Positions 27,746 through 32,397 of a DNA stretch of 64,000 bases are shown piece after piece (the stretch's first letter is position 1; each line of letters begins with the position of its first letter). A program made the position numbers and the translations under genes. This DNA comes from Gemmatimonadota bacterium (GTDB lineage Bacteria > Gemmatimonadota > Gemmatimonadetes > Longimicrobiales > Gaopeijiaceae). The DNA is taken from positions 1 to 64,000 of the forward strand of contig JAPPNO010000104.1 in assembly GCA_028873845.1 (NCBI GenBank), read 5' to 3'. The notes beneath the pieces were generated by a model that worked only from the letters and a program-made list of their open reading frames with translations, was not told the DNA's origin and made no database searches.

Positions 27746-28990
27746 ATGAGATACATGTTCGTCGCGGCAGCCGCGATCCTGCACGCCGCATGCAGCGAAT
27801 CCCCCGAAGCCACCCCTTCCGGCGTCGAGGTCACCGACTCGGCGGGTACCCGAATCGTCACCAGCCCGCCCGCCGATGTAGTCTTCGCGGAGCTGGCCCC
27901 GGAACCCGCGCTCTCGATCGGCCTCCTCGACGGCCCGGAGGAGCTGCTCTTCGGCGATATCGAATCCGTGGCGCGTGACGCAAGGGGCAACGTGATCGTG
28001 GCTGACGGGCAGGCCCTCGAGATCCGCGTCTTCGGCCCGGATGGGGGCTGGCTGCGGTCGCTGGGCAGGGAAGGGGAGGCCCCCGGGGAATTTTTGGACC
28101 TGACCGGTGCCTGGGTGCTTTCCGATGGCGGCATACTCGCGCTGGACTACCGTTTGGACCGGATCACCCGGTTCGGCGCGAAGGACGCGTCGGTGCGCAC
28201 GGCAACCTTCTCCAACCCGGAAGACCTGATCGTCCTGCCGGTCGGGCTCGGCGGAACCGGTGCGGTGATGAGCAGGGCGTCTTTTTTCAGTTATCGGAAC
28301 CCCTTCGGGCGGACCGTGACCGGGTCGCTGGAGGAAATCATGGAGAGCATGTTCGGGTACGAGGATCAGAGGCTCCTGTTCCTGCGCCACCGTTTTGACG
28401 GCACCCTGATCGACACAGTCGCGGAGGGGATCGACCAGTCCCGGGCCGTACTGTCTTCGGAGCGCGGCCCGGACGTCGTGGAGATGGTGGCCGTGCCGTT
28501 TTCGCCTAGATCCATCGCCAGGGGATCCGCGCACGGCGTCGCGTTCACGAACGGCGCAACGTACGAGATCAGGGTCTTCGACGATGCCGGCGACCTCCGC
28601 CTGATTGCGCGCCTCGATGAAGCCCCGCCGGTGCGGACGGATCAGCACCTGGAGACCTACGTCCGGAATCCCGGTGGGCGCCAGCGCGACGAAGCGTGGG
28701 TCCGGGAGCGGCTGGGGCAGTACCGGAGCCTGGAGCTGCCGGAGTCGCTCCCGGCCTACACCCTCGTCCTCTTCGCCGATACCGGAGACCTCTGGGCTCG
28801 GCGTTACAGAATGCGGGGCGAGTCAATGGACCGCTGGGACGTGTTCGCGGCCGACGGCGTCCATCTCGGGCGTACGATGGTCCCCGCATCCTTCCGGATC
28901 GAGGAGATCAGCCGCGGCCAGGTTGTCGGAATCGCGACGGACGAGCTGGGAGTCGAGCGCGTGGAGGTGCGCGACCTTAGTTTCGAGTGA
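27746..28990 (+). CDS. Six-bladed beta-propeller lipoprotein
   Basis: Exported protein of the 6-bladed beta-propeller (NHL-like) group, function unknown. The 414 residues begin with a signal and lipobox-like AILHAAC, then propeller repeats: DIESVARDARGNVIVADGQALEIRVFGPDG...LGREGEAPGEF is the diagnostic first blade, with the later YEIRVFDDAGDL and DLWARRY...WDVFAADG blades. The start is supported by GAGGGTGAG just before ATG. It is divergent from the RidA lipoprotein with 146 nt between them. The selenoprotein gene begins 36 nt after its stop. A related propeller lipoprotein is found at 57103. Such paralogues are common in genomes of this type, and their ligands are unknown. Confidence 0.82.
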   Translation: MRYMFVAAAAILHAACSESPEATPSGVEVTDSAGTRIVTSPPADVVFAELAPEPALSIGLLDGPEELLFGDIESVARDARGNVIVADGQALEIRVFGPDGGWLRSLGREGEAPGEFLDLTGAWVLSDGGILALDYRLDRITRFGAKDASVRTATFSNPEDLIVLPVGLGGTGAVMSRASFFSYRNPFGRTVTGSLEEIMESMFGYEDQRLLFLRHRFDGTLIDTVAEGIDQSRAVLSSERGPDVVEMVAVPFSPRSIARGSAHGVAFTNGATYEIRVFDDAGDLRLIARLDEAPPVRTDQHLETYVRNPGGRQRDEAWVRERLGQYRSLELPESLPAYTLVLFADTGDLWARRYRMRGESMDRWDVFAADGVHLGRTMVPASFRIEEISRGQVVGIATDELGVERVEVRDLSFE

Positions 28991-29026
28991 CCGTTGTCAA
29001 TCCGTGGAGAACAAGGAGACACCCCA

Positions 29027-29383
29027 GTGAGTCAGAACCTCGAATGGCGGTATCACCGCCCCGGCTGAACCGGCTGCAAACGCACGCAGGAGTTTCTTGC
29101 GCAGAACGGAATCGAAGCGGCCGAGACGCGAAACGCGACCAGGGACCCCGTGGTCGCGGACGAAGCGCTCGCCCTGCTCGAAGGCATGACCGAGCTTTGT
29201 GTCGCCAAGGGCAGGAAGGTCGTCCGCGTGGACCTCTCGGCCGACGACCGGCCGGCGGACGATGAGCTCGCCAGGCTGATGGTCAGCCGCTGGGGGAAGC
29301 TCAGGGCCCCGACGCTCAAGGTCGGCACCACGCTGGTGGTCGGCTTCAACCGGGAGATGCTGGCGTCGGTCTTCGGGACGTAG
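29027..29383 (+). CDS. ArsC-like thioredoxin-fold selenoprotein with in-frame TGA
   Basis: Predicted redox selenoprotein. GTG at 29027 follows a strong Shine-Dalgarno (AAGGAG, 8-nt spacing). The same frame runs through a single TGA at 29066-29068 and stays open to TAG at 29381, giving 118 residues. Read as selenocysteine, the TGA is residue 14 in YHRPG-U-TGCKRT, a U-x-x-C redox motif (U14, C17) exactly where ArsC/Spx-like proteins carry C-x-x-C. The rest (TQEFLAQNGIEAAETR..., then LRAPTLKVGTTLVVGF with the cis-Pro-type APT turn) is a thioredoxin-like fold. I recall Cys-containing homologues annotated as an ArsC-family (seleno)protein group. Starting instead at the GTG 29150 would delete the active site. 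A weak stem-loop follows the TGA. Requires selA/B/C/D elsewhere in the genome. Confidence 0.85.
29074..29104 (+). promoter_or_regulatory. Candidate bacterial SECIS hairpin
   Basis: Just downstream of the TGA, CTGCAAAC (29074-29081) can pair with GTTT (29092-29095) and GCAG (29101-29104), leaving a 10-nt loop that contains GG and a 5-nt bulge. The position suits a bacterial SECIS element, which SelB recognises inside the coding region. The pairing is modest and was found by eye, so treat it as tentative. Confidence 0.3.
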
Positions 29384-29487
29384 CGGCTGCCCCCGCCGTG
29401 CTGTTCGCCCGGTACTGGCGTCGGCCCCGCTCCCGTCGCAACCTTTCCCCCCGCTTGTCCTTGCCACCCCCGACCGGAGTCCCGACG

Positions 29488-32397
29488 ATGACCCCCCGGC
29501 CCCTCCGCCCCTTCGCCTACGCCCTCTCGCTCATCCTGCTGGCCGCGGCGACCGCCACCCCCGCCATCGCCCAGCAGCGCGCCCTCGACCACGACGACGC
29601 CCTGCGCTGGAACCGGATCACGGGCTCGGCCCTGTCCCCGAACGGCGCTTGGCTGGTGTACGTGCTGGTCGCCATGGAGGGCGACCCGGTGCTCCATTTC
29701 GGATCTGCCGGCCCCGTCGGGCAGGGGCCATCGCACGCGGTCCGGGGCACCCGCCCCGCGTTCACCTCCGATTCACGCTTCGTCGTCTACTCCATACCGC
29801 CGGTCGAGGCCGTCGTCGATTCCCTGAAACGTGAAGGGAAGCGGGGCGACGATCTGCCGCCCGATTCGCTGGGGTTTGCGGAAATGGAAGCCGTGTTCGC
29901 GGAGGGACCCCAGCCGAGGACGATCGGCGCGGTCGAGAACTTCAAGGTGGCGGGCGAGGGGGCCTGGGTCGCGTACACGCCCGTCGAGGACGACGAAGAG
30001 GAGGGCGAGAGTGCGGAGGAGGAGGGCGCCGAGGAGCCGGAGGCCGAGCCCGAGCCCGAACCGGAGCCGGAACCGGAGGAGGAGGGCGAGGAGGAGGAGA
30101 AGGAGGAAAAGAAGAAGGACGATGGATCGCCCCTCGTCCTGCTCAACCTCGCGACCGGCGAAGAGGTGCGGTACGAGAAGGTGACCGCGTACTACTTCGC
30201 GGCCGAGGCCGCCGTGCTGACCTTCGCGACCTCCGCAAAGGACGGCGAGGGCGATGGGGTCTTCGTGGTGAACCTCGACGACATGGCGCACCGTGCGGTC
30301 ATGGAGGGGAAGGGGAACTACAGGCAGCTGGTGGTGGCCGAGGACGGGTCGCAGGTCGCCTTCCTGTCGGACCGGGACGACTACGAGGCCGATGAGCCCG
30401 AATTCACCCTGTACCACGGTGCCGCACCGGACTGGGCGGGCGCGACAATGGCCAATTCGGCCACCGCCGGCGTCCCCGCGGGCTGGTGGGTCAGCGAGAA
30501 CGGCGGCGTACGCTTCTCCGACGGCGGCGGACGCATCCACTTCGGCACGGCTCCCCGGCCCGAACCCGAGGAGGAGGACGAGACGCTCGACGAAGACAAG
30601 GTCACGCTCGACATCTGGAACTGGAAGGACCCCTACCTGCAGCCCATGCAGCTCGTACAGGCGGGCCGGGAGCGCAACCGCACCTACGCGGCGGTGGCCC
30701 ATCTGGACGGGGGTACCGTGGTCCAGCTCGGTACCGAAGAGGTGCCGGACGTGAACTTCCCCGCCGATGGAGACACACCCTGGGCCGTGGGCATCTCGAA
30801 CCTGCCGCACCGCCAGCTCGTCTCCTGGGACGGGCGCTACAACGACTACTACGCGATCGATGTCGCCACCGGCGAGCGCCGCCTGATCGCGGAGAGGACC
30901 AAGGGATTCGCCTCCCCGTCCCCCTCTGGCCGCTACGTATCCTGGTGGGACGGCGCGGCGCGGCACTGGATGGTGGCCCCGCTGGCAGGCGGCGACCCGG
31001 TCGCAGCGAGCGCCGGTGTCCCCCACGCCGTCTGGAACGAACTCGACGACCACCCCGACCTGCCGCCCTCCTACGGCTCGGCCGGCTGGACCGAGGACGA
31101 CGAGGCGTTCCTCTTCTACGACCGCCACGACGTCTGGCGCTTCGAGCCGGCCACCGGCGAGACCACCAACGTGACCGCGGGCGCCGGACGCGCCGGGAAC
31201 ATGCGTTTCCGCTACACCCGCACCGACTTCGAGGACCCCCATCTGGCCGAGGGCGAGGCGCTCTGGGGCGCATTCCACTACCGGAACAAGCAGTCCGGCT
31301 TCTACCGTGGCCGCACCGACCGCGAGGCCGCGCCCGAGCGGATCGTCATGGCCGACAAGGCCATCCGCTTCAACTTCGGCGGCCATGCCGACGACGCGGA
31401 CCGCTGGCTCATGACCCGCCAGGACTTCCGCGAGTTCCCGGACCTCTGGGTCACCGACGGCGAGATCACCGACATGGTCAGGCTCACCGACGCCAATCCC
31501 CAGCAGGCCGGGTACCGATGGGGCACGGCCGAGATCGCCGAGTGGACCTCGAACGACGGCACGCCGCTCCAGGGCATCCTCATCAAGCCCGACGGCTTCG
31601 ACCCCACGCAGAAGTACCCGATGATGGTGTACTTCTACGAGCGCAGCTCCGACGGACTGCACTCCTACCGCTCGCCCACCCCCGGCGGCTCATCGATCTC
31701 CTACTCCTTCTACGCGAGCCGCGGCTACGTGGTCTTCGTCCCGGACATTCCCTACGAGGTGGGCTATCCGGGCGAGAGCGCGCTCGACGCGGTGGTGCCG
31801 GGCGTGCTCAGCATCGTGGCGCAGGGGTACGTGGACCGCGAAAAGATCGGGGTCCAGGGTCACTCATGGGGCGGCTACCAGATCGCGTACATGATCACCA
31901 AGACCAACCTCTTCGCGGCGGCCGAGGCGGGCGCACCCGTCAGCAACATGACGAGCGCATACGGGGGCATCCGCTGGGCGTCGGGGATGAGCCGCATGTT
32001 CCAGTACGAGCGCACCCAGAGCCGCATCGGCGGCACCCTGTGGGAGTCCACCGCCGAGTACATCCACAACTCGCCGGTCTTCTACGCCGACAAGATCCAC
32101 ACCCCGCTCCTCATGATGCACAACGACGAGGACGGGGCGGTCCCTTGGTACCAGGGGATCGAGATGTTCGTGGCGATGAGGCGGCTGGCGAAGCCGGTCT
32201 GGATGCTCAACTACAACGGCCAGGGCCACGGGCTGAGCCGCGAGGCCGACCGCAAGGACTGGGCGATCCGCATGCAGCAGTTCTTCGACCACTACCTCAT
32301 GGACGCGCCAGCCCCGATCTGGATGGAGGAGGGGGTCCCGGCGATCCTGAAGGGGAAGGAAACGGGACTGGGGGTCAGGGCAAAGAAGATCTCCTAG
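29488..32397 (+). CDS. S9-family prolyl-oligopeptidase-like serine peptidase, exported
   Basis: Exported peptidase of the prolyl oligopeptidase/dipeptidyl-peptidase (S9) family. The 969 residues comprise a signal peptide (cleavage near AIAQQ), a long N-terminal propeller domain, and a C-terminal alpha/beta-hydrolase domain from about residue 690. The triad is visible: Ser793 in GHSWGGYQ, Asp882 in EDGAVPW, His914 in GQGHGLS. The protein is longer than the ~700 typical of S9 because of the large N-domain. An unusual insertion at about 166-212 consists almost only of Glu, Asp, Pro and Lys, including an (EP)n run. GGAG lies just before ATG. It ends on a CTAG shared with the convergent barrel gene, whose stop uses the other strand. 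Confidence 0.93.
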   Translation: MTPRPLRPFAYALSLILLAAATATPAIAQQRALDHDDALRWNRITGSALSPNGAWLVYVLVAMEGDPVLHFGSAGPVGQGPSHAVRGTRPAFTSDSRFVVYSIPPVEAVVDSLKREGKRGDDLPPDSLGFAEMEAVFAEGPQPRTIGAVENFKVAGEGAWVAYTPVEDDEEEGESAEEEGAEEPEAEPEPEPEPEPEEEGEEEEKEEKKKDDGSPLVLLNLATGEEVRYEKVTAYYFAAEAAVLTFATSAKDGEGDGVFVVNLDDMAHRAVMEGKGNYRQLVVAEDGSQVAFLSDRDDYEADEPEFTLYHGAAPDWAGATMANSATAGVPAGWWVSENGGVRFSDGGGRIHFGTAPRPEPEEEDETLDEDKVTLDIWNWKDPYLQPMQLVQAGRERNRTYAAVAHLDGGTVVQLGTEEVPDVNFPADGDTPWAVGISNLPHRQLVSWDGRYNDYYAIDVATGERRLIAERTKGFASPSPSGRYVSWWDGAARHWMVAPLAGGDPVAASAGVPHAVWNELDDHPDLPPSYGSAGWTEDDEAFLFYDRHDVWRFEPATGETTNVTAGAGRAGNMRFRYTRTDFEDPHLAEGEALWGAFHYRNKQSGFYRGRTDREAAPERIVMADKAIRFNFGGHADDADRWLMTRQDFREFPDLWVTDGEITDMVRLTDANPQQAGYRWGTAEIAEWTSNDGTPLQGILIKPDGFDPTQKYPMMVYFYERSSDGLHSYRSPTPGGSSISYSFYASRGYVVFVPDIPYEVGYPGESALDAVVPGVLSIVAQGYVDREKIGVQGHSWGGYQIAYMITKTNLFAAAEAGAPVSNMTSAYGGIRWASGMSRMFQYERTQSRIGGTLWESTAEYIHNSPVFYADKIHTPLLMMHNDEDGAVPWYQGIEMFVAMRRLAKPVWMLNYNGQGHGLSREADRKDWAIRMQQFFDHYLMDAPAPIWMEEGVPAILKGKETGLGVRAKKIS

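Follow-up and report, generated by a model that had tools for sequence, protein, structure and literature searches.

A predicted ArsC-related selenoprotein of Gemmatimonadota and the covarying SECIS-type hairpin within its coding sequence

The gene analyzed here, carried by a 64,000-nucleotide stretch of DNA from a Gemmatimonadota bacterium (hereafter the window), very probably encodes a selenoprotein of the NF041106 family, in which UGA codon 14 would be decoded as selenocysteine (Sec) by means of a hairpin and which most likely acts as a stand-alone thiol-disulfide oxidoreductase (Table 1). The first-pass annotation had described a Shine-Dalgarno sequence, a GTG start and one TGA at codon 14 in a frame open to 29383, and inspection of the sequence confirmed these points, the stop of the frame being TAG (29381-29383) and codon 14 its sole internal TGA. 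With TGA read as U, the translation is VSQNLEWRYHRPGUTGCKRTQEFLAQN...LRAPTLKVGTTLVVGFNREMLASVFGT, with UTGC as the active-site motif. Without read-through, the same frame leaves a 77-residue ORF starting with GTG (29150-29383) and devoid of both U14 and C17, just as had been anticipated for a start placed after the TGA; the active site would be lost by any gene caller that makes no provision for Sec. Overall, the proposed Sec interpretation is supported by conservation, hairpin covariation, the sel genes and the fold, with one gap, selC.

Table 1. Features of the selenoprotein locus (positions in the window)
Feature	Position	Strand	Remarks
Selenoprotein gene, family NF041106	29027..29383	+	118 codons, then TAG stop; GTG start
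Shine-Dalgarno AAGGAG	29014..29019	+	~8 nt 5' of the GTG at 29027; by sequence inspection
In-frame TGA, codon 14, read as selenocysteine (U14)	29066..29068	+	TGA in 63/63 distinct relatives
Codon C17, resolving Cys of the U-x-x-C site	29075..29077	+	invariant in a 36-sequence alignment
SECIS-type hairpin CGCAGGA-GUU-UCUUGCG	29085..29101	+	stem 7 bp; loop begins 23 nt after UGA

A TGA-interrupted frame is by itself not rare, since the window contains 54 comparable ones, with a start no more than 60 codons ahead of a TGA that is followed by 100 or more open codons. What goes beyond chance, as judged from the compared sequences, is the conservation of the TGA at one codon. Indeed, relatives from the genus, the family, the class and a few other phyla provided 63 distinct genes caught by the motif, all with TGA at the same codon, as is also the case for ten genes missed by the motif. 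Among 59 related genomes, a close match was found in 26, each with one internal TGA, and two more have only remote Cys-type Spx/ArsC proteins uninterrupted by a stop. Phylum-wide, 66 of 395 genomes possess a match above the NF041106 cut-off and every such match has one TGA. No Cys form of NF041106 was detected among the 63 distinct genes or the above-cut-off matches of these 395 genomes, and the Cys counterparts of the family are remoter Spx/ArsC proteins. On the basis of this phylum-wide pattern, we tentatively raise the possibility, itself rather doubtful, that NF041106 is an obligate selenoprotein family whose chemistry needs selenium and whose lineages lose the gene instead of replacing Sec by Cys.

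The residues preceding the TGA point in the same direction as the TGA itself. The W, Y, R and P residues ahead of it are invariant in spite of silent variation in most of their codons, and a comparison of codons -8 to -1 of the window gene with those of 19 congeners shows 34 silent changes for 6 replacements. This predominance of silent changes argues that the codons ahead of the TGA are translated and share the phase of those after it. Two minor observations were made in these comparisons. A congener MAG (APA_bin_39, L021/L066) has a U-T-G-Y motif, the C17 codon being changed from TGC to TAC with Sec kept. Furthermore, MAGs labelled as Gammaproteobacteria (L069, L070, L072 and L076) contain the gene in its Gemmatimonadota form; these labels look wrong, as the L072 protein is identical to that of G033 (L023), a genome of the window's family.

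The first-pass annotation had pointed to the bases following the TGA as the place for a SECIS element, and a SECIS-type hairpin with covariation is present there. According to the rules for bacterial SECIS (bSECIS) elements, the loop comprises 3-9 nt, the stem 4-16 bp, a G is found in the first two loop positions and the distance from the UGA is 16-37 nt (PMC13188914); the GUU loop, the 7-bp stem and the 23-nt spacing fall within these limits. The hairpin alone proves little, since a hairpin satisfying the rules follows 13% of all TGAs in the GC-rich window and its energy is borderline (-7.1 kcal/mol bare, -8.2 in context and -13.3 for the 45-nt region, the published limit being -7.5), and the weight is thus placed on conservation and covariation. 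The single sequence does not fold more stably than its shuffled versions (z -1.13), and an Rfam scan of positions 28900-29500 returned chance matches only.

Conservation at silent sites is enhanced in this region. At +1 to +14 after the TGA, codons for the same residue differ in 18% of comparisons versus ~36% elsewhere, a difference of 0.18 (permutation p 0.002). Across 62 distinct sequences, 96.3% of the pair cells in the hairpin are standard, and 22 cells are changed on both sides compared with a shuffle mean of 2.9, a figure reached by none of 500 shuffles; sliding the partner strand along destroys the pairing. RNAalifold, unprompted, recovered six of the seven pairs, the outermost one being absent. 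Compensatory changes affect three pairs (GC to UA or CG, AU to GC, and again AU to GC); in each of these pairs, a wobble position faces a replacement position on the opposite strand. For instance, the change of Thr ACG to ACT is paired with that of Ala GCG to Glu GAG, and the change of Leu CTT to CTC with that of Gln CAG to Arg CGA. The GUU loop is invariant. Conservation and covariation support the identification of this hairpin as a bacterial SECIS element located inside the coding sequence, which would make it a clean case of coding-region SECIS where base pairing in the RNA seems to shape the protein sequence.

The claim that the organism has the Sec machinery held for selA, selB and a Sec-containing selD; selC is missing from the draft. 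In the 4.05-Mb source draft genome, selA (contig C44), selB (C81) and selD (C74) were all found above profile cut-off. The selD gene encodes itself a selenoprotein: an in-frame TGA within it yields GAGUACK, in agreement with the UxxK motif of Sec-containing SelD (PMC13188914); the match ends at base 5 of contig C74, where the gene is therefore cut off. No selC was found in the draft using either the Rfam model or the selC DNA of a congener and its flanks as queries. Most congeners have a selC scoring ~69-80 bits, called tRNA-SeC by ARAGORN, and a 47.8-bit match to the selC model in the draft, being far below that range, was taken as another long-arm tRNA. As congeners have selC and as its ~16-kb neighbourhood is also absent from the draft, where the 16-kb selC surroundings of the nearest congener gave weak and scattered matches only, the absence of selC is best read as missing assembly. 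The selC gene lies at base 1 of a contig in several congener drafts (G003:C47, G004:C84, G007:C88 and G002:C79) and is present in two full-scoring copies in G005, a pattern suggestive of a repeat or insertion site at selC at which short-read assemblies break. The 59 relatives also link the gene to selA: both occur in 25 genomes, the gene only in 1, selA only in 19 and neither in 14 (Fisher p 0.0007, kinship uncorrected). These data support a selenocysteine-decoding lineage of Gemmatimonadota.

Other readings of the TGA have to be weighed against these data. Were the TGA a real stop, the locus would be a pseudogene or would be restricted to the ORF starting at 29150, which is indeed all that the standard code leaves open, and the many similar frames in the window are in keeping with this. 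However, 63 distinct genes from different genera and phyla share the TGA, the residues ahead of it are under protein selection, and the 77-residue product would have neither the redox site nor the first strand of the fold, so that this reading, in effect already refuted by conservation, retains hardly any probability. Some bacteria use codes in which TGA specifies an amino acid, such as Trp in code 4, and the codon could in principle be translated in this way or by near-cognate read-through. This is extremely improbable too, given that TGA serves as an ordinary stop in the same genome, for example at the end of the upstream gene (28988-28990), that the aligned position is a redox Cys in Spx, and that the genome carries sel genes and the TGA is followed by a SECIS-type element. 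Decoding as Sec is, by contrast, strongly supported by the sequence comparisons.

With 113.5 bits for a cut-off of 85 (E 6.5e-33, profile positions 1-106 of 107) and a UxxC motif in the form of UTGC with one in-frame TGA, the protein matches NF041106, an NCBIfam model named ArsC_rel_Se_1, 'ArsC family (seleno)protein'. It stays under the cut-offs of TIGR01617 (Spx/MgsR; 33.2 bits versus 75.05) and of Pfam ArsC PF03960 (21.3 bits versus a gathering cut-off of 24), and narrowly passes that of Pfam Glutaredoxin (25.3 versus 22.9). By description, it can also be likened to proteins assigned to cd03032, which we take to be ArsC_Spx. These are the 'Arsenate reductase 2' proteins of the Global Ocean Sampling selenoproteome, reported in 2008, which share with it an ArsC-type domain with UxxC and comprise 42 Sec forms and 238 Cys homologues (PMC2398784), whereas no Cys form was found here above the NF041106 cut-off. 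Reports of ArsC-like selenoproteins as such go back at least to 2006 (PMC1794560). Judging from its profile score, the gene adds a member to a known selenoprotein family, and the family itself is not new, as shown by the NCBIfam model and by its listing in a 2026 review of prokaryotic selenoproteins as 'Arsenate reductase-like protein', with UxxC and MDE3003982.1 as representative (PMC13188914, Table 1). The present protein belongs to that entry by the curated cut-off, has the same UxxC and one Sec, and does not differ from it substantially. As the family is already catalogued, the gain concerns how widely it is distributed taxonomically and what supports the RNA element; covariation within the SECIS hairpin and the lack of Cys forms in this phylum were measured here.

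The structure computed by AlphaFold2 on the family alignment (pLDDT 93.5, pTM 0.86) predicts a thioredoxin-like fold resembling that of Spx, ArsC and glutaredoxin, with U14 immediately ahead of helix 15-26. Among solved structures, Spx ranks first, with an E of 1.5e-5 and a TM of ~0.5 in Foldseek, and a Z of 8.7 with an rmsd of 2.7 for 88 residues in VIA-align; ArsC-related and glutaredoxin/NrdH chains come next, and the fold matches include arsenate reductases such as 3f0i (Z 7.7). Spx chains are also the best sequence matches among solved structures (E 1e-5), and, in the alignment, U14 and C17 correspond to C10 and C13 of Spx, respectively. Both the fold search and this alignment agree with the earlier proposal that U-T-G-C sits at the redox site of an ArsC/Spx-like fold. 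The match of U14 to a conserved Cys of homologues, which had been suggested as a check, holds for the first Cys of the Spx C-x-x-C, but the family itself yielded no Cys orthologue. The Bacillus subtilis Spx structures (1z3e, 3gfk and 3ihq) have the same fold with C-x-x-C at the equivalent place; the protein described here differs by the substitution of the first Cys by Sec, by a score under the Spx family cut-off and by an identity of 21-26%. In 36 sequences, W7, Y9, R11, U14, C17, F23, L24, G90, R93, P95, G100 and G106 are invariant.

The motif and the predicted fold make a selenol-based thiol-disulfide oxidoreductase the likely role of this protein. In the mechanism that we propose, UGA codon 14 would be decoded as Sec by SelB and tRNA-Sec under the direction of the hairpin, ~16-33 nt downstream of the UGA. 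As suggested by the UxxC motif, the U14 selenolate, located where helix 1 begins, would attack a disulfide or another oxidised substrate, C17 would resolve the mixed species to yield a Se-S bond, and this bond would be re-reduced by a cellular thiol system.

The active-site loop of E. coli ArsC is H-x-P-x-C, and the H-x-P-x-U-x-x-C of the present protein resembles it. This common H-x-P-x-[C/U] loop, the common fold, the arsenate reductases among the fold matches and the ArsC name borne by the family would be consistent with a Sec-containing arsenate reductase in which U14 reduces arsenate. We consider such an activity improbable and unsupported, as the score lies under the Pfam ArsC cut-off, E. 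coli ArsC (1i9d) is no close sequence match (E 1.4) and no ars gene was seen among the window neighbours examined or the ten neighbours sampled in distant relatives. The leading position of Spx chains in both the sequence and the fold searches would fit a Spx-like regulator, with putative binding to RNA polymerase and oxidation sensed by a Se-S switch; the TIGR01617 score, below the cut-off, speaks against it, and this role appears rather unlikely, regulation of RNA polymerase by this protein being likewise unsupported.

The neighbourhood of the gene gave no functional hint: synteny is mostly confined to the genus, the genes flanking it in distant relatives are mutually unrelated, and none of the neighbours examined is conserved beyond the genus. 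Downstream in the window, the S9-family peptidase (29398-32397) contains a stretch of ~50 residues rich in Glu and Pro.
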